Positions 4,104 through 27,313 of a stretch of 59,534 bases of DNA are shown piece after piece. Below the pieces are notes generated by a model that saw only the letters and a list, made by a program, of their open reading frames with translations, was not told the DNA's origin and searched no databases. Position numbers and translations under genes: made by a program. The stretch comes from an uncultured Alphaproteobacteria bacterium. Its GTDB lineage: Bacteria > Pseudomonadota > Alphaproteobacteria > UBA7985. The DNA lies in the NCBI GenBank assembly GCA_905479265.1, contig CAJQLX010000012.1:1-59534 (forward strand). The letters run 5' to 3'. Position 1 is the stretch's first letter, and every line of letters begins with the position of its first letter.

Positions 4104-4160
4104 GTTTGATGGCGGGGAAGGCCGGAAACGGCCTGCCCTCACCGTTAAAACATATCGTAA

Positions 4161-4202: not shown

Positions 4203-4427
4203 GGGTTGGGCGCCTAAGGAACGGCGGGAAACCGTTCAGGATTCGGAGTTATCCGCTTTAATCTCAGCTTATGTTTGCCTTTTTACCTGATTTAAGGTCG
4301 AAATCAGGCCAAAGGCGCTTCCTGCCTTTGGGTTGGTGCGGTGGCAAACGCACGGGCCGGTCATTCTTTGCGCTGGAAACGGGGTTATCCCCTACCAAGC
4401 GCAGGATATTTTGAGCTAAATAGACGC
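4203..4427 (+). promoter_or_regulatory. Hairpin-rich leader ahead of the nucleoside importer ATPase gene
   Basis: Between the bmp terminator and the ATPase ATG there is no gene, but there are four hairpins in series. One pairs 4219-4224 with 4232-4237 (GAACGG/CCGTTC). The second pairs 4277-4282 plus 4286-4293 with 4301-4308 plus 4311-4316. The third pairs 4336-4340 with 4349-4353 (GTGCG/CGCAC). The fourth pairs 4369-4376 with 4395-4403 and encloses GGGGTTATCCCC. In addition CCAAAGGC (4309-4316) can pair perfectly with GCCTTTGG (4324-4331), which would open the base of the second hairpin. This looks like a regulated or processed mRNA leader. No known riboswitch consensus was recognised. Confidence 0.45.
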
Positions 4428-8250: not shown

Positions 8251-8654
8251 TGTCCCAAGACCTCTTCGAAGCTGCCAAAGCAGCTCAAGCGCGCGCCCAC
8301 GCGCCGTACTCCAACTTCTTCGTTGGCGCGGCAATCCGGGATGAGAACGGCGACGTACACGCCGGCTGCAACATTGAAAATGCGGCCTACCCCTCGGGCT
8401 GGTGCGCGGAACCCGCTGCCATTTCCCATATGATTGTGGCCGGTGGGTTGAAGGTGAAAGAGCTGCTGGTCATTGGCAACTCTGAGGATCCTTGCATGCC
8501 CTGTGGTCTGTGCCGTCAGCGCCTGCTGGAGTTCATCGATGATACCTCCAGCGTCACCGTTCACCTTGCGCACCCCGAACGCGGCGTTATCAAGACGCTG
8601 ACGTTTGCCGATCTCTACCCCCACGTCTTTGGCGCGGAACAACTGCACAGCTAG
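8250..8654 (+). CDS. cdd: Cytidine deaminase
   Basis: This 134-residue protein is a homotetramer-type cytidine deaminase, converting cytidine and deoxycytidine to uridine and deoxyuridine in the cytoplasm. The zinc site is intact: C52-A-E54, with Glu54 as the catalytic proton shuttle, and P84-C85-x-x-C88. APYSNFFVGAAI and NIENAAYPSGWCAEPAAI are family blocks. The start is GTG at 8250, whose G is also the last base of the permease stop. The gene sits between the importer and thymidine phosphorylase, so imported cytidine is deaminated and then phosphorolysed. Confidence 0.96.
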   Translation: MSQDLFEAAKAAQARAHAPYSNFFVGAAIRDENGDVHAGCNIENAAYPSGWCAEPAAISHMIVAGGLKVKELLVIGNSEDPCMPCGLCRQRLLEFIDDTSSVTVHLAHPERGVIKTLTFADLYPHVFGAEQLHS

Positions 8655-8664
8655 GAGCCCTTCT

Positions 8665-9993
8665 GTGGCGTATATTCCCCAGGAAACCATCATCCGGAAA
8701 CGGGACGGTAAAGAGCTTTCTGATGCCGAAATTCATGCCTTTATCGAAGGTGTGACCAATGAAACTGTCGCGCGCGAGCAGGTCTCAGCCTTCGCGATGG
8801 CGACGATTTTCCAGAAGATGACGGTGGAAGAGCGCCGCGCCCTGACGCTGGCCATGCGCGATAGCGGGGAGCGGTTGCGGTGGGATGATCTCGACCTGCC
8901 CGGCCCCATTGCTGACAAGCATTCAACCGGCGGCGTTGGCGATAAAGTCTCGCTGCTGCTGGGTCCAATGGCGGCGGCCTGTGGCTTGTTTGTTCCGATG
9001 ATCGCCGGACGCGGCTTGGGGCATACAGGCGGCACTGTTGATAAATTTGAAGCGATTCCCGGCTATACCGTGGCCCCTGACAACGCGACCTTCCGGGGGC
9101 TGGTCAAGAACAACGGCGTTGCCATCATTGGCCAAACAGCCAACCTCGCTCCGGCAGACCGCATCATCTATGGCGTGCGCGATATCACCGGAACGGTTGA
9201 GAGCATTGACCTGATTACAGCTTCGATCCTGTCAAAGAAGCTGGCTGCTGGGCTTGGCTCGCTGGTCATGGACGTAAAGGTTGGCAACGGCGCCTTTATG
9301 GCCACGCTGGACGACGCGCGCGGATTGGCTCGGTCGATCGTGGATGTTGCCAATGCGGCGGGGTGTCAGACCTCGGCTTTGATCACCAACATGAATTGGG
9401 TTTTAGGCCAGACCGCAGGGAACGCCGTCGAAGTGCGAGAATCGGTGATGGCGATGGCGAACCCGGCCCAGGCTGATACACGGCTGGTGACCATCTGCGT
9501 GGCTTTGGTTGGCGAAATGCTGGTGAACAGTGGGCTGGTCGATAGCCCCGTTACAGCGCGAGAACGCGCGCGCGCGTCATTGGATGACGGCTCCGCCTTA
9601 GAACGCTTTGCGAAGATGGTGGCCGGTTTGGGTGGCCCGACTGATTTTGCAGAAAACCCCGATAAACATTTGGCTCAAGCGGCCATCGTACGCCCCGTTT
9701 ACGCGGAAACCGGCGGCTATGTCTTTGCCCACGCAACACGCGACCTTGGCGTGGCGATCATCGGATTGGGCGGCGGACGCACGCAGCCCGGTGCGCCCAT
9801 TGATCACGCGGTTGGCCTCAGCGATATCGCCGGCGCAGGAGCAGAGGTTGCCCCCAACGGGCGCCCCCTCGCTGTGGTCCACGCCGCAGATGAAGCGGCC
9901 TTTGATGCGGCGGCACAGGCCGTGCGCGCAGCGATGGAAGTCTCAGAGGACCAACCCGCCCCTCGCCCGCTTGAACTCGACGTGGTGCGCTAA
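8665..9993 (+). CDS. deoA: Thymidine phosphorylase
   Basis: A 442-residue pyrimidine nucleoside phosphorylase that splits thymidine or deoxyuridine with phosphate to the base and deoxyribose-1-phosphate. The family signature is visible at DKHSTGGVGDKVSLLLGPM, with GRGLGHTGGTVDKFEAIPG and the substrate loop SKKLAAGLGSLVMDVKVGNG. The frame extends upstream over the end of cdd, but AGGAG at 8653-8657 sits seven bases before GTG 8665, giving VAYIPQETIIRKRDG, which matches the usual N-terminus; the earlier ATG is rejected. Its product feeds the next enzyme, DeoB. Confidence 0.95.
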   Translation: MAYIPQETIIRKRDGKELSDAEIHAFIEGVTNETVAREQVSAFAMATIFQKMTVEERRALTLAMRDSGERLRWDDLDLPGPIADKHSTGGVGDKVSLLLGPMAAACGLFVPMIAGRGLGHTGGTVDKFEAIPGYTVAPDNATFRGLVKNNGVAIIGQTANLAPADRIIYGVRDITGTVESIDLITASILSKKLAAGLGSLVMDVKVGNGAFMATLDDARGLARSIVDVANAAGCQTSALITNMNWVLGQTAGNAVEVRESVMAMANPAQADTRLVTICVALVGEMLVNSGLVDSPVTARERARASLDDGSALERFAKMVAGLGGPTDFAENPDKHLAQAAIVRPVYAETGGYVFAHATRDLGVAIIGLGGGRTQPGAPIDHAVGLSDIAGAGAEVAPNGRPLAVVHAADEAAFDAAAQAVRAAMEVSEDQPAPRPLELDVVR

Positions 9994-9996
9994 ACC

Positions 9997-11232
9997 ATGG
10001 CGCGCGCTTTTATCCTGCTGTGCGACAGCGTGGGCTGCGGTGGCGCACCCGACGCTGCTGACTTTGTGAACATCGACGTCGAAACTGGCGAGACCATCCC
10101 CGATACCGGTTCAGACACGCTTGGCAACATCGCCCGGTGGCGGGCGCAGCAGGGGCAGCCGTTGGACATCCCAAACTTGTCCAGTCTGGGCTTGGGGCTG
10201 GCCTGTGAAAATGCAACCGGGCAGGTTCCACCGGGGCTTGAGTGGCCAGCAGACGGTTATACGGGCGTGGTTGGCTCGGCGATTGAAACCTCGCTTGGCA
10301 AAGACACCCCCAGTGGCCATTACGAAATCTGTGGTTCACCGGTTGCGGTGGACTGGGGCTACTTTCCGCGCGAAATCCCATGCTTTCCCGACGATCTCAT
10401 ATCGACGCTGATGCAAGAATGCGGGCTCTCTGGCGTTTTGGGCAACAAGCACGCCAGCGGCACAGCGATTATCGCCGAACTGGGCGCTGAGCATTGCCGC
10501 ACCGATCAGCCCATCGTCTACACCAGCGCTGATTCCGTGTTGCAAATCGCAGCGCACGAAGAAACCTTTGGGCTCCAGCGCCTCTATGACATGTGCGAGG
10601 TGGCGCGCAGGCTCTGTGATCCTCTGAACATTGGCCGGGTGATCGCGCGGCCCTTTGTTGGCAGCGACGCCGCGAGTTTTCAGCGCACAGGAAACCGCAA
10701 GGACTACGCGACACCGCCGCCTCAGAACAACCTGCTCGACCGTGTGGTGCAGGGGGGCGGAGCCGTGTGGTCTGTGGGCAAAATCGAAGATATCTTTGCC
10801 CACCGCTCCATCTCTCACCGCAACAAGGCCAGTGGGCTTGAGGCGCTGTGGGACGGTACACTTGATGCAGCGCGGCGCGCGGGCGATGGCGATCTGATCT
10901 TTGCCAACTTTGTCGATTTTGACAGCAAGTATGGTCACCGTCGCGAGCCCGGTGGCTATGCTGATGCGCTTGAATACTGGGATCGCCGCTTGCCTGAACT
11001 GCTGCCACTGCTGCGTGACGGCGATTTGGTGCTTTGGACCGCCGACCACGGCAACGATCCAACTTGGCAGGGAACAGACCACACGCGGGAACAAGTGCCC
11101 GTGCTGTTTTTTGGCCCCGCCGCGCCAAAGGGCTTGAACGTCGGCGTGTGTTCTACGTTTGCCGATATGGGCGCAACTTTGGCGAAACACCTGCGTCTTG
11201 AACATCTTTCTGCCGGAAATTCAGTACTTTAG
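9997..11232 (+). CDS. deoB: Phosphopentomutase
   Basis: The 411-residue protein isomerises (deoxy)ribose-1-phosphate to the 5-phosphate. It has the alkaline-phosphatase-superfamily metal sites: LLCDSVGCGGAPDA at the N-terminus, DTPSGHYEICG in the middle and TADHGNDPTWQGTDHTRE near the C-terminus. The gene starts three bases after the deoA stop. No deoC (deoxyribose-phosphate aldolase) is in the window, so the final cleavage step must be encoded elsewhere. Length matches bacterial DeoB. Confidence 0.96.
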   Translation: MARAFILLCDSVGCGGAPDAADFVNIDVETGETIPDTGSDTLGNIARWRAQQGQPLDIPNLSSLGLGLACENATGQVPPGLEWPADGYTGVVGSAIETSLGKDTPSGHYEICGSPVAVDWGYFPREIPCFPDDLISTLMQECGLSGVLGNKHASGTAIIAELGAEHCRTDQPIVYTSADSVLQIAAHEETFGLQRLYDMCEVARRLCDPLNIGRVIARPFVGSDAASFQRTGNRKDYATPPPQNNLLDRVVQGGGAVWSVGKIEDIFAHRSISHRNKASGLEALWDGTLDAARRAGDGDLIFANFVDFDSKYGHRREPGGYADALEYWDRRLPELLPLLRDGDLVLWTADHGNDPTWQGTDHTREQVPVLFFGPAAPKGLNVGVCSTFADMGATLAKHLRLEHLSAGNSVL

Positions 11233-11324
11233 CCACCTTTCTTGCGCATAAAGTTGAAGAAAAGAGCTTTTCACCTCATACCCCTGTCTGCTATAGAGAC
11301 GCAGAATATTTTGGGAATTTCCTC

Positions 11325-11888
11325 ATGAAGACTCTTGTTTTGGGCGTAATTTCGGCCCTCTCGATTTCCGTTTCCGCCGCTGCTGAACCCCTGATTGGGG
11401 CCGACATGTCCCTCGCGTTGGGGGGAAAAATGCTGGCGGGAGATGACGGCAAATTTTATCGCTTTTACGCCAATGGCTTGCTTGAAGTCACCGGCGAGGA
11501 CGACAGCAAACAGGCCATGTCCTTTGGCAAATGGGAAGCCGGTCCAAAGTACCTATGCTTGAGCCTACCCGGCAGCGAAGAACGCAGCTTCTACACCATG
11601 GACGCACAGAGCGCAGACATGGACGCACTGGGTAATGAAGGCTTTGAAGGCGCGCTGAGAATTGTCATGGAGCCAACCGACAGCGGCACCGTGGTTTCCG
11701 GCATGCTCGACACGCCCCAGACAATCCGCCTGCAACGCCTGTTGGAAGAAGGGTCAGAAGCCGCTGCGCTGCGACCCATGCCTGACATTGTGAACGAGAT
11801 TAAGCCCGTCCTGCTGGCCGCTGATGCCCTGCGTTTGCTGGAGCGTGAAAACACGCTGCCCAGCGACGGCGTCGAGGGCGCGGAATAG
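11325..11888 (+). CDS. Uncharacterised secreted protein (187 aa)
   Basis: No family was recognised. The protein has a clear signal peptide (MKTLVLGVISALSISVSAAA, cut before EPLIG), so it is probably periplasmic. The mature part contains GKMLAGDDGKFYRFYANGLLEV and FGKWEAGPKYLCLSL, short beta-like segments with a single cysteine, and an acidic tail. It follows deoB on the same strand after 92 bases and faces upp across 21 bases. GGGAA lies eight bases before the ATG. Its place at the end of the nucleoside operon may be chance. Confidence 0.7.
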   Translation: MKTLVLGVISALSISVSAAAEPLIGADMSLALGGKMLAGDDGKFYRFYANGLLEVTGEDDSKQAMSFGKWEAGPKYLCLSLPGSEERSFYTMDAQSADMDALGNEGFEGALRIVMEPTDSGTVVSGMLDTPQTIRLQRLLEEGSEAAALRPMPDIVNEIKPVLLAADALRLLERENTLPSDGVEGAE

Positions 11889-11909
11889 CGTCTTCGTGAT
11901 GCTGGGGGA

Positions 11910-12536
11910 TTACGTCCCGTACAGACGGTCTCCCGCATCGCCCAATCCCGGCACGATGTAACCTTTTTCATTCAGGTGATCGTCCAGTGACGCTGTGTAA
12001 ATCGGCACGTCCGGATGATCTTCGCTGAACTTTGCAACCCCTTCTGGGGACGCCAGCAGGCAGATGAACTTCAAGTCTGTGGCCCCCTGATCCTTGACCA
12101 ACTGAACCGCATGGGACGACGAACCGCCCGTGGCCAGCATGGGGTCACAAATGATTGTCACACCTTCGCTGACGTCCGGTAGGTTCAAGTAGTACTGCTC
12201 GGGCATCAGCGTATCTTCGTTCCGCTTGAGGCCCACAAAGCCCACTCGGGCCGTTCGCTCCAGCGCCAGCAATCCATCCAAAAAACCGTTGCCCGCCCGC
12301 AAAATTGATACGACGTTCAAGTGGTGAGGCTCGCGAACCGGTGCATTGAACGTTGTCAGGGGCGTTTCAACGGGGCGCTTGGACATGGGCCAGTCCCGCA
12401 GCGCTTCGTACCCCAGCATAAAGCTGACCTCGTGCATCAGCGACCGAAACCGCGCCATGTCGGTCGCGACGTCGCGCAGTTGGCTCAGTTTGTCGGTTAC
12501 CAGCGGATGGTCAACAACGGTCAATGTATCGGACAC
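11910..12536 (-). CDS. upp: Uracil phosphoribosyltransferase
   Basis: This 208-residue enzyme joins uracil and PRPP to give UMP. The PRPP-binding loop CDPMLATGGSSSHAVQLV is intact and the C-terminal GLGDAGDRLYGT is the family hallmark that contacts uracil. The start codon is GTG at 12536, with TGGGGA upstream. It lies 17 bases after the stop of adenosine deaminase and is surely co-transcribed with it. Uracil comes from uridine phosphorolysis, so upp closes the pyrimidine side of the salvage cluster encoded on the other strand. Confidence 0.97.
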   Translation of the reverse strand: MSDTLTVVDHPLVTDKLSQLRDVATDMARFRSLMHEVSFMLGYEALRDWPMSKRPVETPLTTFNAPVREPHHLNVVSILRAGNGFLDGLLALERTARVGFVGLKRNEDTLMPEQYYLNLPDVSEGVTIICDPMLATGGSSSHAVQLVKDQGATDLKFICLLASPEGVAKFSEDHPDVPIYTASLDDHLNEKGYIVPGLGDAGDRLYGT

Positions 12537-12553
12537 AGGGAATCCCCACTTGT

Positions 12554-13573
12554 TTAGGCGGCTTCGGACGCACTCACCCGCATCATCAGCGCGGCGCGCG
12601 TTGTCTCGTCCATAAAGCCAGCGTTCAGAGCATTTCGCGTAATGGTGTAAAGGTCTGGCACAGACAGTCCAGCAACATCCACTGCAAAACGGTACTCAGC
12701 CCCCAAAGATGTGTGGAAATATGGCGGATCGTCAGAGGCAAGGGTGATCGTACACCCGGCATCCCACAGACCTTTGAGCGCGTGCTCCTCCGGCGTTGGA
12801 AAGACTTTGAGCGCAATGTTGGAGCCGGGGCAGACCTCGAACGGGATCTTACGCTCGGCCAGCTCCTTTACCAGCGCCGGGTCTTGGATCGCCCGAACAC
12901 CGTGGCCCAAGCGCTCGACCATCGGCAAAGCGGCAAGCGTTTCACGGATGGAATCAGGCCCCAGCCACTCGCCCGTGTGCGCTGTGCAGCGCAAACCAGC
13001 CTCGGCTGCGATGTCGTAAGCAGGCCGGAAATCCGCCGGCGTATAGGCGTCCTCTGCCCCCGCCATCTGGAACCCTGTGATATACGGGTGCAAATGCTCA
13101 ACAGCCGCTTTCGCCGCTGCGACTGAGTTCTCTGGCCCGTAATGGCGGACGATGGTTTGGCTGATGCGTGTTTCAACCCCAAACCGCTCGCGCGCGTCGT
13201 CGATGGCTTGGATCAGCGCGTCGAGTTGGTCTTTCAGGGCCATCCCAAGGTTCAAAACGTGGTCTGGACTGACCAGAATTTCGACGTAAAGACCGCCCTC
13301 CATCGCAACGCGTTCGAGGTAATCAAGGGTCAGGTCATAGTAGTCTTCGGGCGTTTTGATCGCGGCCGTCGCCAGATCGTAAACCTTCAAGAAGTCGTTG
13401 AAGTCGGTCCAGAGATAGTTGTCTTGGTCATCCAGAACACCGTCCGGCAGGGTAATCCCGTTTCGCGCTGCGAGTTTCCGTAAAACGGGCGCGTGGATGG
13501 TGCCTTCTAAATGCGCGTGCAGTTCAGCCTTTGGCACCCGGTCCGCCGGGTGCGCTCCAAAATCTTTGAGCAT
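12554..13573 (-). CDS. add: Adenosine deaminase
   Basis: A 339-residue zinc enzyme that converts adenosine to inosine. The zinc ligands HAHLEG, the catalytic glutamate in CTAHTGEW, the histidine in ERLGHGVRA and the aspartate pair in LASDDPPYFHTSLG are all present. The start is well defined by AGGAG seven bases before the ATG. It heads a two-gene unit with upp. Some proteins of this subfamily act on adenine instead of adenosine, but the neighbouring nucleoside importer supports adenosine. Confidence 0.94.
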   Translation of the reverse strand: MLKDFGAHPADRVPKAELHAHLEGTIHAPVLRKLAARNGITLPDGVLDDQDNYLWTDFNDFLKVYDLATAAIKTPEDYYDLTLDYLERVAMEGGLYVEILVSPDHVLNLGMALKDQLDALIQAIDDARERFGVETRISQTIVRHYGPENSVAAAKAAVEHLHPYITGFQMAGAEDAYTPADFRPAYDIAAEAGLRCTAHTGEWLGPDSIRETLAALPMVERLGHGVRAIQDPALVKELAERKIPFEVCPGSNIALKVFPTPEEHALKGLWDAGCTITLASDDPPYFHTSLGAEYRFAVDVAGLSVPDLYTITRNALNAGFMDETTRAALMMRVSASEAA

Positions 13574-13644: not shown

Positions 13645-14538
13645 TCAGACGGCGGTGGTCATCTTTTCACCAAAGGTCCGGAGCGGCAGGTCGTCTCGCC
13701 GCCGTAACCAATTGTCGCTCGGATAATTGGCCGAAGCGTCAATTGTATGAAGGGTAAAAGCATAGCGTGACTTGTCAGACATGTTCGCTGAGGAACGATG
13801 CGGCAAACGGCCATGCAACATCACCAGCGAGCCCTTTGGCGCGACCAGTGGTACAGCCTCGTCCAGCGGCCAATCCGCTGTTTCAAGGTGTTCAAAATCA
13901 GTTCCATGCCCCTCGCCCGTGCGGAAAAACCGCTTTTCGAGTGGCCCTTTGTGCCAGCCTGGCAAGGCGTACATCGCCCCGTTTTCCGTGGTTGCATCTT
14001 CCAATGCAAACCAAAATCCAATGCAGGTTTCTGGCTCGGAATAGATAAACGTGCTGTCTTGATGCATGGTCACTTCACCGCCCACATGGGCGTGTTTGAA
14101 GATCACCATCGACTGCAGCAATAACGGCTTTCCCAAGCCCAGTTGTTGTGTGAGTTGTCCCAGCTGCTTTTGGTGGGTAAAGGCTTCGAAATCAGGATCG
14201 AGGTCATGCATGGCGTGGCCAAGCTTGTTAACCGCTCTCACCCGGTCAACGCCTTCCACCTTCTCTTCCATAAAGGCGCGCATGACATCGCCGGAACTGA
14301 GGAAGTAATCCTCGCCCGCGTGCTGATTATCGACAGCATCAAACGAGTGACCATCGGCGGCGTCCACCAACTCTTTGGAGAGTCGATCAGAAGCGGCCAT
14401 GAGGTCATCACAGGCTTTTTCGGAAACAAATCCTTCAAGGATGAGGCAACCGGCCTCTTCCCATGCGGCTTTAGCACCCGCAGGTGCGCCGGTTACAGGA
14501 TCATAGGTGAAACGGGGAGCTGGCACAGTTTTTATCAT
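13645..14538 (-). CDS. Phytanoyl-CoA dioxygenase (PhyH) family protein
   Basis: A 297-residue Fe(II)/2-oxoglutarate dioxygenase. The iron-binding HxD lies near residue 159 in TMHQDSTFIY and the distal histidine in GRLPHRSSANMSDKSRYAFT, where the arginine after the histidine region probably binds 2-oxoglutarate. IGFWFALEDATTENGAMYALPGWHKGP is a typical PhyH core. Members hydroxylate very different substrates, including acyl-CoAs, ectoine and phosphonates; many plain eukaryotic PHYHD1-like proteins look like this one. It is 62 bases downstream of the oligopeptide-type ATPase gene on the same strand, so it is likely the last gene of that operon and may act on the imported compound. The ribosome binding site is weak. 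Confidence 0.88.
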   Translation of the reverse strand: MIKTVPAPRFTYDPVTGAPAGAKAAWEEAGCLILEGFVSEKACDDLMAASDRLSKELVDAADGHSFDAVDNQHAGEDYFLSSGDVMRAFMEEKVEGVDRVRAVNKLGHAMHDLDPDFEAFTHQKQLGQLTQQLGLGKPLLLQSMVIFKHAHVGGEVTMHQDSTFIYSEPETCIGFWFALEDATTENGAMYALPGWHKGPLEKRFFRTGEGHGTDFEHLETADWPLDEAVPLVAPKGSLVMLHGRLPHRSSANMSDKSRYAFTLHTIDASANYPSDNWLRRRDDLPLRTFGEKMTTAV

Positions 14539-14600: not shown

Positions 14601-16823
14601 TCAAGCAGACCCCAGCGCCGGTTTCTCGCTATTTTCCCGGCTCAAGGCCCGTCGAACGCGCCCAATAAGCCCCGGCTTTGAGGCTTCAGAGCCAAGAAGA
14701 TCCGCCCCCTCATCCGCCGCCGCTGTGATGGCGTCGGTCTGGATGACGGCTTCCATCTCGTCGAGAATGCTTTGCGCCAAATGGCATTTGACTTGATGAC
14801 CATCAGACAGGGTGCGCATCGGCGGCAGTGTCGTCTCGCACAGATCGCCTTCGACCTGCGCCTTGCGCGGGCAACGTGTCTGAAACGGACAGCCCGAAGG
14901 CGGATTCAACGCCGACGGAATATCGCCATCCAGAATGATACGGCGCTTCTTGACCCGAGTATCAGCAATGGGAACAGCCGACAGCAGGGCTTCGGTATAG
15001 GGATGATAGGGCGGCGAGAATACTTGCTCGGTGCTGCCCTGCTCGACCACGTGGCCGAGGTACATGACCACCACGCGATCCGACAGATACCGCACAATCG
15101 ACAGATCATGAGAGATGAACAACAGGGTGGTTCGGTGCTCGCGCTGAATGTCCATCAGCAGTTGAGACACCGCAGCCTGCACCGATACATCCAGCGCCGA
15201 TACGGGCTCATCCGCCACAACAACCGCCGGATTTCCGGCAAAGGCGCGCGCGATGCCGATGCGCTGTTTCTGACCACCGGATAACTGGCGCGGCATGCGA
15301 TTGGCGAAATCGCGGGGCAGTTTAACCAAATCCAGCAAATCCAACATGCGCGATTCGCGTTCACCGTCGGTCGTGCCGATACCAAATTTCTCCAACGCAC
15401 GAATAATCTGCGCGCCAACGGTTTGGCTGGGGTTTAGCGTGTCGAATGGGTTCTGAAACACCATTTGCAGGCTGCCCAGCGTTTCGGGTGCGCGGGATTG
15501 TACGGGTGTGTTCGAGATCACTTGGCCGTTGAGTTTGGCTTCACCCTTTGTTGCGGTTTCCAAGCCCAATAACACCTTGGCCAGTGTGGACTTGCCGCAC
15601 CCTGACTCACCAACAATCGCAACGGTCTCCGCTTCGCGGGCGACCAAATCAACCTCTTCGTTGGCCTTGATCGTGCGGCGCTCGCCGGCGCTTAGAAAGG
15701 CATTGGCCGCGACTTCGTAGTATTTCTTGAGGTCTTTGACGTCCAAAACGATGTCACCGGCCAAGGCGGATTCCGCCTGTGCTTCAACCTTTGGCGGTGC
15801 TGTCCAATCGATCTCGTTAAAGCGCAAACAGCGGCTTAGATGGCCCGGCTGATCCTGCACGGCGCGCATGTCGATATCAGCCTGATCGCACCAGCCCGGC
15901 TTGTAATGGTCACAGCGGTCCTGAAAATTACAGCCCAGCGGGCGGTCTTGGGGCAAGGGCAGTTGACCCCGGATCGGCACCAGCGGGCTGGCGTTCTTGT
16001 CCGTGCCGGGTAACGGGATCGAGCGAAACAGACCTTGGGTGTAGGGATGACGCATCTTGTTAAAGACCTCGTCCACCGTCCCAAACTCCACCGCCTCACC
16101 CGCGTACATCACGTTTATTCGATCACAGGTGTCGAGGATCAGTCCCAGATTGTGGGAAATATAGACCATCGACGTCCCAAACTCAGCCGCCAAGTCGCGC
16201 ACCAAGTCGACGATCGACGCCTCCACCGTCACATCCAAGGCCGTTGTCGGCTCGTCCAACAGCAGCAAAGACGGCTTGGAGAGCAGCGCCATCGCGATCA
16301 CCACCCGCTGTTGCTGTCCACCGGAGAGCTGGTGCGGGTAAGCATTCATGATCCGGTCAGGATCGGGCAAGCGTACAGCTTCCAAAATATCCCGCGACCG
16401 CTGGCGCGCTTCCTCCCGCGTGACGTCCTCGTGCAGCAGCGGCACTTCCATCAGTTGGTTGGCGATTTTCATGGATGGGTTCAGGGAAGCCATCGGCTCC
16501 TGATAGACCATCGCGATTTCGGAACCGCGGATTTGCCGGGTTTCCTCGGGCGACATGGTCAGGATGTCTCGCCCTTTATACAAAATCTGGCCGCTGACGA
16601 CTTTACCCGTCGAACCCATGTAGTTCATGACGCCAAGGGCGACCGTAGACTTGCCACAGCCGGATTCTCCGACCAAGCCGACGGCCTCGCCCGGCATCAC
16701 GGTCATGTTGAAATCAACAACAGCCGGAATTTCGCCTGCGCGGGTAAAATACGACAGCGACAGGTTCCGGCATTCGAGGACGGGGGCGTTGGGATCCAGA
16801 CCGGCGATTTCGACTTTCGACAT
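14601..16823 (-). CDS. Fused double ATPase of an oligopeptide-type ABC importer (DppD-DppF fusion)
   Basis: This 740-residue protein has two complete ABC ATPase domains of the peptide/nickel family. Walker A sites are GESGCGKST at 52-60 and again at about 401-409; signatures are LSGGQQQRVVIAMALL and LSGGQKQRIGIARAF. Each half ends in the oligo_HPY region with four cysteines (CNFQDRC...WC...SRC and CPFQTRC...LC...VKC), a pattern that in some DppD/DppF proteins holds a [4Fe-4S] cluster. About 50 further residues after the second half are acidic and unique. It starts four bases after the permease gene. Such fusions are common in alphaproteobacteria; the substrate is unknown. Confidence 0.93.
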   Translation of the reverse strand: MSKVEIAGLDPNAPVLECRNLSLSYFTRAGEIPAVVDFNMTVMPGEAVGLVGESGCGKSTVALGVMNYMGSTGKVVSGQILYKGRDILTMSPEETRQIRGSEIAMVYQEPMASLNPSMKIANQLMEVPLLHEDVTREEARQRSRDILEAVRLPDPDRIMNAYPHQLSGGQQQRVVIAMALLSKPSLLLLDEPTTALDVTVEASIVDLVRDLAAEFGTSMVYISHNLGLILDTCDRINVMYAGEAVEFGTVDEVFNKMRHPYTQGLFRSIPLPGTDKNASPLVPIRGQLPLPQDRPLGCNFQDRCDHYKPGWCDQADIDMRAVQDQPGHLSRCLRFNEIDWTAPPKVEAQAESALAGDIVLDVKDLKKYYEVAANAFLSAGERRTIKANEEVDLVAREAETVAIVGESGCGKSTLAKVLLGLETATKGEAKLNGQVISNTPVQSRAPETLGSLQMVFQNPFDTLNPSQTVGAQIIRALEKFGIGTTDGERESRMLDLLDLVKLPRDFANRMPRQLSGGQKQRIGIARAFAGNPAVVVADEPVSALDVSVQAAVSQLLMDIQREHRTTLLFISHDLSIVRYLSDRVVVMYLGHVVEQGSTEQVFSPPYHPYTEALLSAVPIADTRVKKRRIILDGDIPSALNPPSGCPFQTRCPRKAQVEGDLCETTLPPMRTLSDGHQVKCHLAQSILDEMEAVIQTDAITAAADEGADLLGSEASKPGLIGRVRRALSRENSEKPALGSA

Positions 16824-16827
16824 GGTG

Positions 16828-18396
16828 TTAATCCTTCAACGACTGTTCGCGCAGCGTATCGGCCAGCAGGTTTAGGCCCAACACCAGCGAGACAATGCAA
16901 AGCGCCGGTATGACCGCCATCTGCGGCTCAAACCGAAGCTGACCGCGCCCGTGGGCAATCATGGAACCCCAATCAGCGCTTTCTTGCGGCAAGCCCAGCG
17001 CGAGGAAGCCCAAGGTGCCCAGCAAGATCGCCGTGTATCCAATCCGCAGCGCCGCATCGACCATCAGCGGTCCGCGCACGTTGGGGAGAATCTCAAAAAT
17101 CATGATGTAGAACTGGTTTTCACCCCGCGTCTGAGCAGCGGCAACGTAGTCGCGGTCTTTGACATCGAGTGTCAGCCCGCGCACCAGCCGGAACGCACCC
17201 GGGGCCGAGGAAAAGGCAACCGCGACAAAGACATTGAGCATGCGCGGTTCCATCTGCGCAAAGTTGGTCACCGCGATGGCGATATCCGCCTCGCGCTGTG
17301 CATTCCCACCACCAAAAATCGCCGCAACCCATGCGCCCACGCCGCTCAAATCCGGCAGTCCCCACGTGTTGCGCAGGTACAGGAACAGCGCGATGGGAAG
17401 AAAGACCACAAGGATCGCAATCAAACGACCCATTTTGACCGAATATAGCCCCCACAACCCAGCGAGAACCAGCAACAGAGGAAAGGCGAAAATGGCGGTT
17501 GCGAGGATCCGGCTGAGGTTGCCGTCCTTACCAACCAAGACGATCAGGTAAAACAGCACGATGACCGGAAACGCCAGAATGGCATTGGCGGCAAAGGTGA
17601 TGACTTGGTCAAACCAGCCGCCGCGATAACCCGCGAGCAAGCCAAGGGTGATACCGACGGTAAAGGATACCAAAGTTGCACCAATGGACAGGGGCAAAAC
17701 GGTTCGTGCGCCGTAAATCAGGCGGGAGAAAATATCGCGATTGGCTTTGTCCGTTCCCAGGATTGCTGGCAGTTTTTCCCCTTCATCACCAACCCAAGAA
17801 ACCAACGGCGCACCGCCGCGGATGTTGGACTTATAGAGCTTGCCGTATTCTGCGGCATCGGCCAACGAAAGCCGGACGTAATCGGCGTAGCTCAACCCGT
17901 TGAGCGCTTCGGCACCGAGTTTAAACTTGCGCGTAACGCCTTGAACAATGGTGCCGTTGTTCTTCGACAGGGCCTCCAACGGACCATAGAGCGGCAGCAG
18001 ATCGGCCATCAGCGCGGCAATGATCCAAAAGAAGCAAATCGCCAAGCCAACCATGCCAATGGGACTGTCAAAAATGCGTCCATAGAGGCCCAATCTGGCC
18101 TTGAACAGGCGGCTCACGATCATGACCCCAGCGAGCACGGCAAAAACGGGCCACAGCACGTAGAGCGCCCAGACCGTTGCGAGCCCCATCTTGGGGGAAC
18201 TGAACAGCGCAACAAAGACCATCCCGGCTGTCCCAAGGATCAACGCCAGCGACGTTAGGGTATTGAATGGTGGCCGTTTCAGCGCATTGATCACATTGGA
18301 ACCAGCAGAGAGCAGCAAGGCAAAGCCGAGAAGCGTGGCCCAGACGGTCCAGAACGAGGCGATGGTGCCGCCGAGAATAGCGAGATTTGCAAGCAT
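16828..18396 (-). CDS. Oligopeptide-type ABC permease, DppC-like, oversized
   Basis: The 522-residue protein is a DppC/OppC-type permease but far longer than the usual 280-320 residues. Additional hydrophobic segments lie at the N-terminus (about residues 1-120) and in the middle (about residues 285-345, ILATAIFAFPLLLVLAGLWG onward). The core landmarks are LGTDKANRDIFSRLIYGAR before the transmembrane domain and GFLALGLPQESADWGSMIAHG at the C-terminal end. It follows the DppB-like gene by 15 bases and has GAGGGG before its ATG. No frameshift is needed to explain the length: the frame is clean and the extra parts are membrane-like. Confidence 0.9.
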   Translation of the reverse strand: MLANLAILGGTIASFWTVWATLLGFALLLSAGSNVINALKRPPFNTLTSLALILGTAGMVFVALFSSPKMGLATVWALYVLWPVFAVLAGVMIVSRLFKARLGLYGRIFDSPIGMVGLAICFFWIIAALMADLLPLYGPLEALSKNNGTIVQGVTRKFKLGAEALNGLSYADYVRLSLADAAEYGKLYKSNIRGGAPLVSWVGDEGEKLPAILGTDKANRDIFSRLIYGARTVLPLSIGATLVSFTVGITLGLLAGYRGGWFDQVITFAANAILAFPVIVLFYLIVLVGKDGNLSRILATAIFAFPLLLVLAGLWGLYSVKMGRLIAILVVFLPIALFLYLRNTWGLPDLSGVGAWVAAIFGGGNAQREADIAIAVTNFAQMEPRMLNVFVAVAFSSAPGAFRLVRGLTLDVKDRDYVAAAQTRGENQFYIMIFEILPNVRGPLMVDAALRIGYTAILLGTLGFLALGLPQESADWGSMIAHGRGQLRFEPQMAVIPALCIVSLVLGLNLLADTLREQSLKD

Positions 18397-18411
18397 GATT
18401 GTCCCCTCGCC

Positions 18412-19599
18412 CTAAGCCACACGAATACGTGGATTGAGCAGCACGTATCCAACATCTGAAATGAACTGGGTCAGCAGGACCACGATGACCGACACGACGG
18501 AACAGGCGAGGATCAGGTTGTAATCCATGTTCGATGCTCCCGCGTTCAGCGCCCAGCCAAAGCCTTTCCACGAGAAAATAACTTCGACCACCACCAGCCC
18601 AGAAAGCAGATAGGGGAACTGCAGCATGATGACGGTGAAAGGCGCGATGAGAGCGTTGCGCAAGGCATGCTTCAGCACGACTTGGTGCCGAGGAACGCCC
18701 TTGAGCACGGCTGTACGCACGTACTGAGACCCCATTGCCTCCGCCATTGACGCGCGGGTCATGCGGGCGATGTAGCCGAAGCCGTAAATGATCACGGCTG
18801 AAACCGGTAAGACCGTGTTGGCGAAGGTAATGCCGTCTTTGTCGAGGTTTGCCGACCCTTGCAACGGGCTTTTCCGCGCCCATTTATCGGCGCCGAGGAA
18901 GGTGTCTGCGATCGGCAGCACGTCGATGACGTTGCCCAAAGCCGCAAAAACCATGGAGTTCCCCGCCAGCAAAACCACCAGCAGAATCCCCATCACGTAT
19001 TCTGGCATCGACGTTGATCCAATCGCGACCACCGACAGGGTTCGGTCGCGGACAGAGCCTTCATTCATGCCCGCCAGAATGCCCACGCACAAACCCAAGC
19101 TGACCATAATGCCAAAGACCCAAAGTGCGAGCATGCCGGTGTTGGCCAAGCGCTCGTTTATCACGCCCCAAGGGTCGGCGTTGGGTCGCTCGTTGCCTTG
19201 TGAGTCCACGAGTACGCCTCGGTAACCGGCAACGTGCTTCTTAAAGACGATGGATTCTCCCCAATCCCCGCGCAAAAAGCCAAACAACCACGTGCCATAG
19301 CGTTCAGCGAGGGAGAGCTGGCGGCACTTTTCGGGGTCGATGAAGAAACCCTTTGGATGATTGGGATCGTCCGGCGCTTCGATCACCACTTCAGCCCCTG
19401 TGCCAGGCTCGCACTGGTGGAAAATGGTGCGCTGGATAAAGCGATCCTGCTCGGTCTGAGGCGTTCGCGGACCAAGCTCTAGCACGGCAATCGTCCGAAG
19501 CGCCCGCGCGTTGCCGCCCACAATAACAAAAACAACCGCCGAGACGACCAAGAGCGTCAGCAGCAGAATGATCAATTTTCGTATAGCAAAGGTGAGCAT
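18412..19599 (-). CDS. Oligopeptide-type ABC permease, DppB-like, long
   Basis: A 395-residue DppB/OppB-type inner membrane permease. The N-terminal helix LIILLLTLLVVSAVVFVIVG is followed by a long soluble insertion (about residues 30-130) that includes LSLAERYGTWLFGFLRGDWG, the usual family motif, plus extra sequence with two cysteines. The core RASMAEAMGSQYVRTAVLKG and KHALRNALIAPFTVIMLQFP is standard, as is VVVEVIFSWKGFGWAL. Normal DppB proteins have 310-340 residues. AGGGA precedes the ATG. It pairs with the oversized DppC-like subunit, and both belong to the same transcript as the double ATPase. Confidence 0.92.
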   Translation of the reverse strand: MLTFAIRKLIILLLTLLVVSAVVFVIVGGNARALRTIAVLELGPRTPQTEQDRFIQRTIFHQCEPGTGAEVVIEAPDDPNHPKGFFIDPEKCRQLSLAERYGTWLFGFLRGDWGESIVFKKHVAGYRGVLVDSQGNERPNADPWGVINERLANTGMLALWVFGIMVSLGLCVGILAGMNEGSVRDRTLSVVAIGSTSMPEYVMGILLVVLLAGNSMVFAALGNVIDVLPIADTFLGADKWARKSPLQGSANLDKDGITFANTVLPVSAVIIYGFGYIARMTRASMAEAMGSQYVRTAVLKGVPRHQVVLKHALRNALIAPFTVIMLQFPYLLSGLVVVEVIFSWKGFGWALNAGASNMDYNLILACSVVSVIVVLLTQFISDVGYVLLNPRIRVA

Positions 19600-19707
19600 G
19601 TGTCCCTACTGCGCCTTACCCGTTCAGGGAAGCCAGCACCCGCTGTCTGGCTCGCCTGAACCGGCCGGAATTCACCGACCCATCAAGGTTGATTTTCGAA
19701 TTTCTAG

Positions 19708-19743
19708 GCAAAAAGAAAGGAGGCGACAGGGCCGCCCCCTTTT
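19708..19743 (-). terminator. Terminator-like hairpin between the binding protein and permease genes
   Basis: On the minus strand AAAGGGGGCG (19742-19733) pairs with CGCCTCCTTT (19725-19716), one G-T pair, followed by CTTTTT. It lies 24 bases after the binding-protein stop and would cut most transcription before the permease genes, the usual way to make more binding protein than permease. Confidence 0.75.
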
Positions 19744-19766
19744 CCCAAAACTGAACCGGCGTCGGT

Positions 19767-21392
19767 CTATGCGACGGAGACGGTTTCGTAGTGGTGCTCA
19801 AACGACTGGTGCATCTGGTAGCCCACGACACGGTCACTCGCGTGCGAGAAAATACCGCGCCAGTAAGGCTGGATGATCACACCATCGTCCTGCATCATCT
19901 TTTCCAACTTCGCCATGACTTCACGACGGGCGTCCGGATCAGCAAGTCCGTTAGCCATGTCGAGCGTCTGGTCGAACATTGGATTGTTGTAGTGCGACTC
20001 GTTCCAATCAACACCGCTGCGGTAAGCGAGGTTCAGGATCTGAACACCCAGCGGACGACCGTTCCAGTTTGTCGTGGAGAACGGGTAGTTGATCCAGTTG
20101 CCCCAGAAATCCGAAGACGGACGACCATCAGCAATCACATTCAGGCCCGCTTCGCGGAACTGGTTGATCATCGCGACGGACGTGTCTTCACGGTAGTCAC
20201 CGCCAGCGAGGTAAGAGTAGGTGATTTCCGCGCCGGAAAGCCCCTCTGACTCGAGCAGTGCCTTTGCCGCTTCGACGTTGCGCATCGGCTTTTCGCCGAG
20301 GTCAGCGTACTCTTCGTGCATCGGACCAACGTGGTGGTTTTCCGCAACGGCACCCAGACCAGCCTGACCCAGCTCCAACATATCTTCGTTGGAAACAGCC
20401 AGCGCCAGAGCGCGACGGAAGTTCGCGTTGTCGAACGGAGCGATGTCCTGGTTACCACGGGCAATGATCGTCGCGCCCGTTGCCACTTCGTTGCGCCCAA
20501 AGCCCAGATCATCCATCAGCTCAACCTGAGAGGCCGCTGTCTGGAAGTTCAGGTCAACTTCGCCCGCTTCATAAGCTGCAATTTCCGGCGCAGGATCGTT
20601 GCCGTAGTCCGTGTAGACGATCTCGTCGAGGTAAACTTCACCCCAAACCGCGTCGCCATACCAAGAACCCGCAGGACGCTTCACCAAGCGCGCGCCAACT
20701 TCCACTTCGAACTCTTCGAGCGAGTATGGGCCGGTGCCAATTGGGTTCGCCTTGAGGTCACCACCAAAGTCAGGGTGAACGATCAAAGCGGGGTAGTCAG
20801 ACATACCCGGAATGATGGTGATGTCAGGCTGCGACAGGTTAAGCCGGATTGTCATCGCATCAACAATCTCAACACCATCGGCGTTCAGCGTACCAACACG
20901 CGCCCGCATGGAGTTACCCTCAGTCTCTTCCGTCCAGCGGCGCAGGTTCCACGCGATGTGCTCTGCGGTCAGCGTATCGCCGTTAGACCACTTCACCCCA
21001 TCACGCAGCTTGAGCGTATAAACGGAAGCATCTTCATTCGCTTCCCAACCCGCCAACAAGCGCGGCGAGAACGTGAAATCTGTATTCCAACGCACCAAAG
21101 GCTCAACAACGTGGCGGGCCACGTTGCCCATTTCTGACCAATCAAACAAACGCGGGTCGCGGATGTCCTTGATGATCATGGAAACATTGAGCGTGCCGCC
21201 CATCTTTTTGTGCCCATCAGCCAGCGCAGCAGGGGCCGCGCCGATCATCGCTAGAGCAGCTGCACTGGTGACGCCCAGTGCGGTGGCGGTTGCAAGAAAC
21301 TCGCGTCGAGACGTGCGGCCTTCGCGCGCGTCTTCTGCCATTTTCAATACGGACTTATGCATTTCGCCACCAAGCCAAGTTTTCTCTGGCAT
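19767..21392 (-). CDS. Oligopeptide-type ABC substrate-binding protein with Tat signal
   Basis: A 541-residue SBP_bac_5 family protein. The N-terminus carries a twin-arginine signal, SRREFLATATALGV, preceded by about 25 charged residues and followed by a hydrophobic stretch ending in PAALADG, so it is exported folded. Family parts include VVEPLVRWNTDFTFSPRLLA, LRDGVKWSNGDTLTAEHIAW and NPIGTGPYSLEEFEV. The frame is open 30 codons further, but GGGAGG lies just before the ATG at 21392. Proteins of this family bind peptides, but also opines, sugars, glycosides and amines, so the ligand cannot be read off. It leads the importer operon. Confidence 0.92.
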   Translation of the reverse strand: MPEKTWLGGEMHKSVLKMAEDAREGRTSRREFLATATALGVTSAAALAMIGAAPAALADGHKKMGGTLNVSMIIKDIRDPRLFDWSEMGNVARHVVEPLVRWNTDFTFSPRLLAGWEANEDASVYTLKLRDGVKWSNGDTLTAEHIAWNLRRWTEETEGNSMRARVGTLNADGVEIVDAMTIRLNLSQPDITIIPGMSDYPALIVHPDFGGDLKANPIGTGPYSLEEFEVEVGARLVKRPAGSWYGDAVWGEVYLDEIVYTDYGNDPAPEIAAYEAGEVDLNFQTAASQVELMDDLGFGRNEVATGATIIARGNQDIAPFDNANFRRALALAVSNEDMLELGQAGLGAVAENHHVGPMHEEYADLGEKPMRNVEAAKALLESEGLSGAEITYSYLAGGDYREDTSVAMINQFREAGLNVIADGRPSSDFWGNWINYPFSTTNWNGRPLGVQILNLAYRSGVDWNESHYNNPMFDQTLDMANGLADPDARREVMAKLEKMMQDDGVIIQPYWRGIFSHASDRVVGYQMHQSFEHHYETVSVA

Positions 21393-21600
21393 GTTGCCTC
21401 CCAATATAACGGATGTTTTCTGCATGATTTTGCTGTCCAGCAGCGTGCAGCTTTTATGCGCCTCGCCACGTATGACAGCCATGCAACCCTATCATCATAG
21501 ATCAGCAAGCCGTCTTAGCAAGATTAAATTGCCGATAAACGGTGACCCACCCCGCTTATCGGCATCAAAAGCGCATTCTAGAAATCGAGATTGGGGCGGA
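21393..21600 (-). promoter_or_regulatory. Intergenic region upstream of the importer operon
   Basis: There is no gene in these 208 bases. They should contain the promoter of the binding-protein gene and the 3' end of the enolase-superfamily transcript. No clear -35/-10 pair, operator palindrome or U-tracted hairpin was recognised. Confidence 0.3.
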
Positions 21601-24018: not shown

Positions 24019-25590
24019 ATGGCGAGAGACGATAATGGTGGCCGCACCCGTCGGCGCAGTGGCGGACGCGATGCAAAAAACGCAGCAGCAGCGGCGACTT
24101 CGGCGGTCAAACAGCTTCCACGCGGCGCAGTGCGCAACCCCATTTCCCCCATCGAGCCCCTGTCCGCCGACCAAATTGAGATGATCCATCACGCCTCCCT
24201 TCGCATTCTAGCCGAGGTAGGGATGGAGATTTTGGGCGACGATGCCAAAGCCGTGTTCAAGGGTGCTGGCGTGGAGGTGAAGCCCGACACGGACCTGATC
24301 AAGTTCGACCCCGCCTTTATCGAGGAATCCATCAAAACCGCGCCCTCGACCTTCAAACTGCACGCCCGTAACGCCGACCGTACGGTGTCCTTTGGCGAAG
24401 GCTACATCAACTTCTGCCCCGTAGCTTCAGCGCCCAACGCAACCGATGCCGATCGTGGACGGCGGCAAGGCAACTGGGAAGACTTCCGCAACCTCACCCG
24501 GCTGACCCAAAGCCTGAATTGCATGTCCTTTATTCCCGGTTACCCGGTTGAGCCGACCGACATCGATCGACGGACACGCCATCTGGAAGCCATGCGGGAT
24601 TTCAGTTTTCTGACCGACATGGCGTTTCACAACTATTCACTCGGACCGCAGCGGACCAAGGACGGGCTGGATCTCGCGAGAATCGTGCGCGGTAATATCA
24701 CCGAAGAACAGTTTCTCGCCGAACCGTCGATCATGACGATCGTCAACACAAACTCGCCGCTGAAACTCGATAGCCCCATGGGGCACGGCATCATCGAACA
24801 TGCCAAAAACGGCCAGATCTCGGTGGTGACGCCCTTTACCTTGGCGGGTGCCATGGCGCCGGTCACCATTGCTGGTGCCTTGGCGCAGCAGAACGCGGAG
24901 TTTCTCGTGGGCCTGTCGCTGGCTCAATGCGCCAAGCCCGGCGCGCCCGTGGTCTACGGCGGCTTTACCTCCAACGTCGACATGAAAACCGGCGCCCCGG
25001 CCTTTGGCACACCGGAATACGTCAAAGCCGCTCAAGCGGGGGGACAGCTGACCCGCCGCTATGGTGTACCCTACCGCTCATCCGGTGTTTGCGCCGCAAA
25101 CATTCCTGACGCTCAGGCCGCTTGGGAGACGCAGATGTCGCTTTGGGCGACCATGACAGGCGGGGCCGATATGGTCATGCACGCGGCGGGATGGATGGAA
25201 GGCGGACTTTCCGCGTCGTTTGAGAAGATGGTCATCGACGCCGACATGATCCAAATGCTGCAAGCCTATATGCAGCCCATCGAAGTCTCCGAGGCGACGC
25301 TCGGCCTCGACGCCATCGCGGACGTTGGCCCCGGCGGACATTTCTTTGGAACGCCGCAGACGATGGAGCGCTTTGAAACCGCATTTTACTCGCCCATGCT
25401 GTCCGATTGGCGGAACTATGAAACCTGGTCCGAAGACGGCAGCAAGACCGCTTATCAGCGGGCAAACACGGTCTACAAACAGCTTTTGTCCGAATACGAA
25501 GAGCCCGCGATCGATCCTGCGACCAAAGACGCAATCAACGACTTCGTGGACCGTCGCATCGCCGAAGGCGGATCTTTTGACGACGACTAG
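24019..25590 (+). CDS. MttB-superfamily (trimethylamine methyltransferase-like) protein, copy 1
   Basis: A 523-residue COG5598 protein. Characterised relatives demethylate trimethylamine, glycine betaine, proline betaine or carnitine and pass the methyl group to a corrinoid protein. Here no in-frame TAG occurs, so it is a non-pyrrolysine member. Family blocks include IHHASLRILAEVGMEI, FTLAGAMAPVTIAGALAQQN, GGFTSNVDMKTGAPAFGTPE and DVGPGGHFFGTPQTMERF. The first 40 residues are a basic Arg/Gly/Ala-rich tail not expected in the fold. No corrinoid-binding or reactivase gene is in the window. It is followed after 118 bases by a paralogue. Substrate unknown. Confidence 0.88.
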   Translation: MARDDNGGRTRRRSGGRDAKNAAAAATSAVKQLPRGAVRNPISPIEPLSADQIEMIHHASLRILAEVGMEILGDDAKAVFKGAGVEVKPDTDLIKFDPAFIEESIKTAPSTFKLHARNADRTVSFGEGYINFCPVASAPNATDADRGRRQGNWEDFRNLTRLTQSLNCMSFIPGYPVEPTDIDRRTRHLEAMRDFSFLTDMAFHNYSLGPQRTKDGLDLARIVRGNITEEQFLAEPSIMTIVNTNSPLKLDSPMGHGIIEHAKNGQISVVTPFTLAGAMAPVTIAGALAQQNAEFLVGLSLAQCAKPGAPVVYGGFTSNVDMKTGAPAFGTPEYVKAAQAGGQLTRRYGVPYRSSGVCAANIPDAQAAWETQMSLWATMTGGADMVMHAAGWMEGGLSASFEKMVIDADMIQMLQAYMQPIEVSEATLGLDAIADVGPGGHFFGTPQTMERFETAFYSPMLSDWRNYETWSEDGSKTAYQRANTVYKQLLSEYEEPAIDPATKDAINDFVDRRIAEGGSFDDD

Positions 25591-25708
25591 CCACCTTTTC
25601 CCGTTTCCGGCGCAAGGTCGTAGGTTTTGTCGCAATTTCCTATGTTCCGGCACCGCGGGGGGCTAGCGTTGAACGCCTAGACTGTTTTCAAACACAAAAG
25701 GTGTCATC

Positions 25709-27313
25709 ATGCCCACCCAACGCGCTCCTTCGAGCGCCAGTTCGGACCCCGAACCTTCCTCGTCGCGCTCCCGTAAATCTCGCTCCGGCGGCCGGGCTGC
25801 CCGCGCCGCTCAAGCGAAACAGGCATTAGCCTCCGCTGGAAGCGCCTACGCCAAGCCCCGCCGCAATACGGTTGGCGGCTTGAACATTGTCTCGGATGAA
25901 GCCCTCCAGCAAATCCATGACGCCTCCCTGCACATCCTTGAAAATTTCGGTATCGAGTTCATGGCTCAGGACGCACGCGATACCTTTGTTCGCGCTGGCG
26001 CTTTGGCGGATGACGAAACCGGGCGCGTTCGTTTGGGCCGCGAGTTGGTGGATGCCGCCCTCGCCACCTGCCCCTCCTACTTCGAGCTAACCCCGCGCAA
26101 CCCGGATCGAAAGCTGCGGCTGGGTGAGAACTTCATGAACTTCACGCTGGTGGCTGGCCCGCCATCGGTTCACGACGAAATCAACGGGCGCCGCTCTGGC
26201 GGCATGTCGGACTACGTCGATTTGGTCAAGCTCGCCCAATCGTTTGATGTGATCCATGCCGTCGGGAACCAACCTGTTGCCCCCATGGAGCTGCCAGCCA
26301 ATACCCGGCACCTCGATACCTATTACGCCAATCTGCGTTACACCGATTTGAGCTTTCACGCTTCTGCTATTGGCGAAGAACGCGCGCTGGATGCCATTGA
26401 TATGATGGCCATTTCCCGTGGTTTAACGCGCGAAGAACTCAAAAGCAGCCCTTCGCTGGCCACGGTTATCTCCGTCAACTCTCCGCGCAAAGTTGATAGC
26501 GCCATGACCGACGGTTTGCGCGCCATGGCCACGTGGGGACAGGCCGTCTCAATCACGCCGTTCTGCCTCATGGGTGCGATGGCCCCCATTTCCGTTCCGG
26601 CTGCTGTGGCGCAATCAAACGCCGAGGCTTTGGCCTGCATTGTCCTGACGCAACTGATCAACCCCGGCTCGCCGGTGATTTACGGCTCCTATATCTCTAA
26701 CGTCGATCTGCAGTCCGGCGCGCCAGCATTTGGCACACCGGAGCACGTGCAGGCGACGATGATCGCCGGACAGTTGGCCCGCCGATACAACCTGCCCTAC
26801 CGCGCCTCCAACGCCTGCGCGTCAAACGCTTGCGATGCTCAGGCGGCTTACGAGTCCATGAATGCGCTCTGGGCCTGCGCCTTGGGTGGCGCACACCTAA
26901 TTTATCACGGCGCTGGATGGCTCGAAGGGGGGCTGCAAGCATCTTACGAGAAAGTCATTTTGGACGTGGAAATGGCGCAAGAGATGGTTGAAACCTGCTC
27001 TCCTGTATCCGTGAACGCGGAAACGCTCGCTCTGGAGGCCGTCGCAGGCGTTCCGCCGGGTGGTCACTATTTCGGCGAAGCGCACACCTTAGCCAAGTTC
27101 GACAGCGCCTTTTACAAGCCGCTCGTCTCCGACCTTACGAACCATGAAAATTGGTTAGACGCCGGGGCCAAGACCGCCACGGAGCGTTGCACCGAGATTT
27201 GGCAGAACAAATTGCGGGAATACGAGGAACCGAAAATGGCGACCGATCGGCTTGAAGCCTTGGAGGCCTTTATGGCCAAGCGGAAAGAAGAGCTAAAAGA
27301 CGCTTATATCTAA
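25709..27313 (+). CDS. MttB-superfamily (trimethylamine methyltransferase-like) protein, copy 2
   Basis: The 534-residue paralogue of the preceding gene product, also without an in-frame amber codon. Shared blocks are IHDASLHILENFGIEF, FCLMGAMAPISVPAAVAQSN, GSYISNVDLQSGAPAFGTPE, GAGWLEGGLQASYEKVILD and GVPPGGHYFGEAHTLAKF. It again has a long N-terminal tail, rich in Ser, Arg and Ala (about residues 1-55), of different sequence from copy 1. The two proteins are clearly divergent, so the pair may bind different substrates or form a heteromer. AAAAGGTG precedes the ATG and a strong terminator follows. AlphaFold-type modelling would show whether the corrinoid-facing cavity is kept. Confidence 0.88.
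   Translation: MPTQRAPSSASSDPEPSSSRSRKSRSGGRAARAAQAKQALASAGSAYAKPRRNTVGGLNIVSDEALQQIHDASLHILENFGIEFMAQDARDTFVRAGALADDETGRVRLGRELVDAALATCPSYFELTPRNPDRKLRLGENFMNFTLVAGPPSVHDEINGRRSGGMSDYVDLVKLAQSFDVIHAVGNQPVAPMELPANTRHLDTYYANLRYTDLSFHASAIGEERALDAIDMMAISRGLTREELKSSPSLATVISVNSPRKVDSAMTDGLRAMATWGQAVSITPFCLMGAMAPISVPAAVAQSNAEALACIVLTQLINPGSPVIYGSYISNVDLQSGAPAFGTPEHVQATMIAGQLARRYNLPYRASNACASNACDAQAAYESMNALWACALGGAHLIYHGAGWLEGGLQASYEKVILDVEMAQEMVETCSPVSVNAETLALEAVAGVPPGGHYFGEAHTLAKFDSAFYKPLVSDLTNHENWLDAGAKTATERCTEIWQNKLREYEEPKMATDRLEALEAFMAKRKEELKDAYI

Follow-up and report, generated by a model that had tools for sequence, protein, structure and literature searches.

A tandem pair of non-pyrrolysine MttB-type proteins that probably shares a corrinoid protein encoded elsewhere in an alphaproteobacterial genome

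Two neighbouring genes of an uncultured alphaproteobacterium encode MttB-type proteins, MttB1 and MttB2, that are very probably corrinoid-dependent demethylases of betaine-like compounds and share a corrinoid protein encoded elsewhere in the genome, which would be why none is found beside them. The stretch of DNA analysed here (the window) is a complete contig (C12) of 59,534 bases from an assembly of 2.9 Mb that is 96% complete.

Results

The genes of MttB1 (24019..25590, 523 amino acids, terminal stop TAG) and MttB2 (25709..27313, 534 amino acids, terminal stop TAA) lie on the forward strand and were defined by the list of open reading frames and a Pfam profile. Both proteins match the PF06253 (MttB superfamily) profile over its whole length, with scores of 637 and 616 bits, respectively, against a cut-off of 25, and neither reading frame contains an internal stop, in line with the initial annotation, which had stated that both lack an in-frame TAG; both are non-pyrrolysine members of the superfamily. 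The sole TAG is the terminal stop of MttB1 and, because the PF06253 match runs as far as residue 518 of 523, it sits at the normal C terminus. With no internal TAG in either gene, we rejected a reading of the pair as pyrrolysine enzymes; the TIGR02369 model of pyrrolysine trimethylamine methyltransferases gave 321.5 and 283.8 bits, below its NCBIfam equivalog cut-off of 525.

AlphaFold models point to an MtgB/MttB fold for both proteins. The model of MttB2 superposes on MtgB with a TM score of 0.80–0.81 by query length and 3.4 Å, whereas that of MttB1 is poorer (mean pLDDT 75.7, TM score 0.71 with 15.9 Å). MtgB of Desulfitobacterium hafniense (PDB 2QNE, 9YCE) ranks first or close to first among the structural matches of both models, but it is only 33–34% identical (Foldseek), lies on a separate branch and carries a leucine at the pyrrolysine position, which is deleted in the pair. 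No paper to accompany 9YCE turned up in the collection searched. The best sequence match of both proteins among solved structures is the ‘trimethylamine methyltransferase’ of Sinorhizobium meliloti (PDB 4YYC), which nevertheless groups with two other proteins of this genome, C22 and C4b, and not with the pair. MttB of Methanosarcina barkeri (PDB 7XCL/7XCN) belongs to the same superfamily and fold but is a pyrrolysine enzyme.

MttB1 and MttB2 are 41% identical to each other. A quick tree of 39 rows, several of which drew long-branch warnings, placed them in separate subclades (95 and 97% SH-aLRT) of one 29-row clade (100%) that takes in a further protein of this genome, C4a, and leaves out MtgB, 4YYC and C22. 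This level of identity and the separate subclades, each with relatives in other genomes, led us to reject a recent tandem duplication, and the tandem appears to unite old paralogues. Within the genus (six genomes) the two genes are adjacent in four (G000, G002, G003, G004); in G005 MttB2 lies at a contig start, and in G001 (63% complete) MttB1 has a different context that does not include the alcohol dehydrogenase–enolase module described below.

The active site was mapped by alignment to the M. barkeri MttB residues named in PMC9842639. Pyl334 aligns to a one-residue deletion in both MttB1 and MttB2, Met249 is replaced by Phe and Gly110 by Ala in both, Thr111 by Ser in MttB1 and by Gly in MttB2, and Gly372 remains Gly in both. 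The MttB active-site residues are thus not conserved one for one in the pair; at the positions of Pyl334, Met249, Gly110, Thr111 and Gly372, MtgB, which itself works with a corrinoid, carries Leu, Leu, Tyr, Gly and Phe, respectively. The corrin-binding rim glycine of MttB is retained in both proteins. By sequence, the deletion is the one real difference.

The same deletion is found in 80/80 MttB1-like rows (the best 80 of at least 596 matching stretches) and in all five aligned MttB2 relatives, these being the five of the ten fetched that passed the length filter for the active-site alignment and the tree. The loop at the pyrrolysine position is 10 residues long in the pair versus 11 in MtgB. 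A motif pattern applied to the ten MttB2 relatives together with loci L152 and L154 returned a 10-residue loop in nine of the 12; the three that fail the pattern (L245, L246 and L247) nonetheless show the gap in the alignment. Among 103 rows with MttB1 as the best query, the loop has 10 residues in 91, 13 in three and nine in two, with seven giving no pattern match. Within the genome, the deletion is common to MttB1, MttB2 (24019–27313) and C4a (L018:9537-11114) and is absent from C22, C24 and C4b, as it is from MtgB and 4YYC. The pair belongs to a PF06253 clade that is shorter by one residue at this position; this, the old paralogy of MttB1 and MttB2 and their company of Fe-ADH and enolase genes in the genus (described below) are the modestly new points.

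Profile searches of the organism’s own genome turned up neither a corrinoid protein nor a RACo reactivase nor a pterin-binding methyltransferase in the window, upholding the observation of the initial annotation; every match (two to PF02310, one to PF14574 and two to PF00809) is on another contig. Since the edge of the window is the edge of the contig, this absence says little about the genome. The search elsewhere that the initial annotation had proposed uncovered one MtgC-type corrinoid protein (C36:56354-57058) with PF02607 and PF02310 domains and a D-x-H-x-x-G motif, followed by a DUF1638 gene; one RACo/RamA reactivase (PF14574) on contig C22; and one methyl-THF:corrinoid methyltransferase (C20:42068-42997; 337 bits versus an NCBIfam cut-off of 259). 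The corrinoid protein scores below the NCBIfam MtgC cut-off (208.8 versus 370 bits), and the reactivase below those of AcsV (381.7 versus 800) and Rama_corrin_act (104.9 versus 500). In gene content, a corrinoid protein, a reactivase and a corrinoid:THF methyltransferase are available to the pair.

Two further candidates were rejected. A 297-residue frame at C1:5572 resembles FolP beside FtsH (by eye) and was set aside as the corrinoid:THF methyltransferase, the C20 protein being the one that passes a curated cut-off. MetH was discarded as a corrinoid source because the only two PF02310 matches are MtgC and a 697-residue frame near the end of C20, which we take for methylmalonyl-CoA mutase. 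The presence of MtgC, the C20 methyltransferase and one PF02574 protein (C1:50273) in a genome in which MetH was not seen fits a split methionine synthase.

Of 385 genomes of the class, 55 encode a close relative of the pair; MtgC is present in 52 of these, compared with 22 of the 330 remaining genomes (Fisher p 8e-43, a value that overstates the case as the genomes are related). A relative was defined as an MttB2 relative with an E value no higher than 1e-125, a threshold that lets in MttB1-type proteins as well, and MtgC as a match at E 1e-60 or better, with two 47%-identity matches (G134, G374) dropped. The three family genomes lacking MtgC by this definition are G081 (82% complete) and G234 (70% complete), with no match, and G185 (93% complete), which has only a 32% match in a 1251-residue frame and whose genus mate G280 has MtgC. 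Beyond the 385-genome test, an MtgC match was found in G001, G002, G003, G006 and G010 and none in G005 and G008.

Direct linkage is seen at two loci, L221 and L035, in which an MttB1 gene that is divergent from an alcohol dehydrogenase–enolase module clusters with RamA (55%), MtgC (77–78%), DUF1638 and a second MttB gene. The L224 stretch ends inside a frame resembling RamA (by eye). In the fetched flanks of MttB1-like loci (the best 80 of at least 596), MtgC occurs at 5/80, RamA at 2/80 and DUF1638 at 3/80, so linkage to MtgC is the exception. An FAD-GcvT enzyme of the N-demethylation type lies within 5 kb of 44 of these 80 loci, and 29 FAD-GcvT genes directly adjoin the MttB1-like gene on the same strand; as a rough control, only one of the 22 enolase loci from other genera has such a gene in its flank. 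Where 5 kb is available on each side of the MttB1-like gene (62 loci), 16 loci carry none of the eight partner types that were counted.

In the window, MttB1 is divergent from two reverse-strand genes. The first encodes an Fe-containing alcohol dehydrogenase (Fe-ADH, PF00465; 22770..23969) with metal-ligand-like D...H and H...HG motifs, and the second an enolase-superfamily enzyme of the mandelate-racemase/acid-sugar-dehydratase type (PF13378/PF02746; 21601..22719) with K-x-R, QPD and HTWG motifs. The same divergent arrangement is found in L152, L153 and L154, and the Fe-ADH occupies the same place in L221, L224 and L035. Among 22 enolase relatives outside the genus, on stretches some of which end early at contig ends, four lie near an MttB1-like gene (L220, L221, L224, L233) and nine near an Fe-ADH; the enolase and Fe-ADH thus occur also without MttB. 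In the collection of papers searched, none connected MttB-type enzymes to a mandelate racemase or an enolase. Together with the importer and the L242 locus described below, this neighbourhood may serve a pathway for a betaine-like compound whose carbon skeleton bears a hydroxyl or similar group.

Further along the reverse strand are the genes of an ABC importer, whose binding protein (SBP_bac_5; 19767..21482) is a probable member of the group, with two permeases (18412..19599 and 16828..18396) and an ATPase of two fused ATPase domains (14601..16823) named by eye, followed by a PhyH-type Fe(II)/2-oxoglutarate dioxygenase (13645..14538). The importer genes (14601–21482), the binding protein included, are missing from the same place between enolase and PhyH in G004 (L154), where PhyH directly follows the enolase, so the importer was gained or lost within the genus. 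In L242, a locus of the same order, a similar importer is divergent from an MttB2 relative, and genes of a GbdR-like regulator and of an FAD-GcvT enzyme accompany them. Beside the PhyH gene ends what looks by eye like a nucleoside uptake and salvage cluster (3096–13573) with a BmpA-like binding protein, an ABC transporter, a phosphorylase, phosphopentomutase, adenosine deaminase and uracil phosphoribosyltransferase, the last two of which also follow PhyH in L154.

The genome holds ten PF06253 genes, including the pair. Local BLAST placed four of the other eight (C22, C4b, C1 and C37) near FAD-GcvT or SoxA-like enzymes (SoxA named by eye) and found a Rieske oxygenase in the fetched flank of C4a, C8 and C19; Pfam confirmed the FAD-GcvT architecture near C4b, C1 and C37 and Rieske domains near C4a and C8. 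C19 is a very divergent protein, 21–28% identical to the other nine; in the region L024:2673-7598 it has as neighbours a flavoprotein of the old-yellow-enzyme type and a GbcA-like Rieske protein that scores below the GbcA cut-off. C24 is part of a run (L017:6357-14002) in which a GntR-type regulator, a DHDPS-family protein, an aldehyde dehydrogenase, two SDR proteins and an FAD oxidoreductase were recognised by eye.

Discussion

The initial annotation had offered two explanations for the missing partner, a distant corrinoid protein and corrinoid-free chemistry. The former is strongly supported by the genes present in the genome, the linkage to the same module in relatives and the co-occurrence with MtgC. 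That the pair no longer requires a corrinoid protein is, by comparison, very improbable: the empty window, the deletion and altered residues at the pyrrolysine site and the three family genomes without a close MtgC could be read in this way, but MtgC accompanies the family far more often than it occurs in other genomes, L221 and L035 carry it next to RamA and MttB1, the exceptions are incomplete assemblies save G185, whose genus mate has MtgC, and the rim glycine that contacts the corrin in MttB is kept in both proteins. Corrinoid-free chemistry finds no support. The initial annotation had also held that a co-regulated corrinoid protein gene elsewhere plus intact active sites would make the pair an ordinary methyltransferase; the gene content agrees with this, while the active site departs from it by the one-residue deletion.

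What the pair acts on is a separate matter, and we favour a quaternary ammonium compound. MttB1 and MttB2 are unlikely to be mere isozymes of the glycine betaine methyltransferase MtgB. They are predicted to share its fold, and on glycine betaine Ruegeria pomeroyi produces two proteins of the PF06253 family (PMC12478193), but the pair falls outside the groups of both MtgB 2QNE and 4YYC in the quick tree and has the shorter loop, glycine betaine needs neither Fe-ADH nor an enolase, and C22 is a better candidate for this role because the tree joins it to 4YYC and a SoxA-like gene is only 1.7 kb away from it. A sulfonium substrate (DMSP-like), still demethylated through MtgC, is similarly doubtful. 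A DddP-like M24 protein, which scores 414 bits with the DddP model and so falls short of the cut-off of 600, is encoded within 5 kb of 21 of the 80 MttB1-like loci (the best 80 of at least 596), its gene in L221 (14077-15327) is just upstream of MtgC, between RamA and MtgC, it also occurs in L035 and L233, and the present genome has such a protein at C27:54323-55474 (42%). However, in the set of 62 loci that have 5 kb on each side, 21/21 DddP-like loci also carry the FAD-GcvT N-demethylation-type enzyme, and the mapped part of the window has no DddP-like gene.

Corrinoid-dependent demethylation by the pair is further favoured by the frequent FAD-GcvT neighbours of MttB1-like genes and the match of the MttB2 model to MtgB, and we propose the following model for it. 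The importer probably brings in the substrate, which would bind in the TIM barrel of MttB1 or MttB2, and its methyl group would be transferred to Co(I)-MtgC. The resulting methyl-Co(III)-MtgC would pass the methyl group to tetrahydrofolate via the MtgD-like C20 methyltransferase or, alternatively, to homocysteine via the PF02574 protein, and Co(II) would be re-reduced by RamA, possibly with DUF1638. Fe-ADH and the enolase-superfamily enzyme probably process the carbon skeleton of the substrate. A more specific version, which we put forward tentatively, is that the two proteins, Fe-ADH and the enolase form a dedicated unit dismantling a methylated compound new as an MttB substrate, e.g. a hydroxylated betaine or a sulfonium compound; MttB1 and MttB2 might each take off a different methyl group or work together in a mixed oligomer.

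A shared corrinoid protein has precedents, here compared by published description. R. pomeroyi has one corrinoid protein common to several PF06253 proteins (PMC12478193), and its MtgBCD system resembles the present one in its PF06253 proteins (such bacteria have as many as seven of these ORFs), single MtgC, DUF1638, RamA and MtgD, partly scattered over the genome, as well as in MetH, which was not seen here either (only two PF02310 matches). It differs in its glycine betaine substrate, whereas the pair belongs to another PF06253 clade, with Fe-ADH and enolase, in a genome of ten PF06253 genes. In Eubacterium limosum, an anaerobic acetogen with 42 MttB members, several non-pyrrolysine proteins (MtpB, MtcB and MtyB) share MtqC, RamQ and MtqA (PMC8604678). 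Sharing is not universal: MthB of E. limosum, which acts on phosphocholine, has its own MthC (PMC12155760).

These results remove the apparent puzzle of corrinoid enzymes without a partner, absence from one contig being weak evidence, and mark out a well-defined, uncharacterised PF06253 clade and a recurring Fe-ADH–enolase module. The parts worth following are the substrate, the loop deletion and this module; once the substrate is found, the methylated compounds that enter carbon cycling through B12-dependent enzymes would be one more in number.
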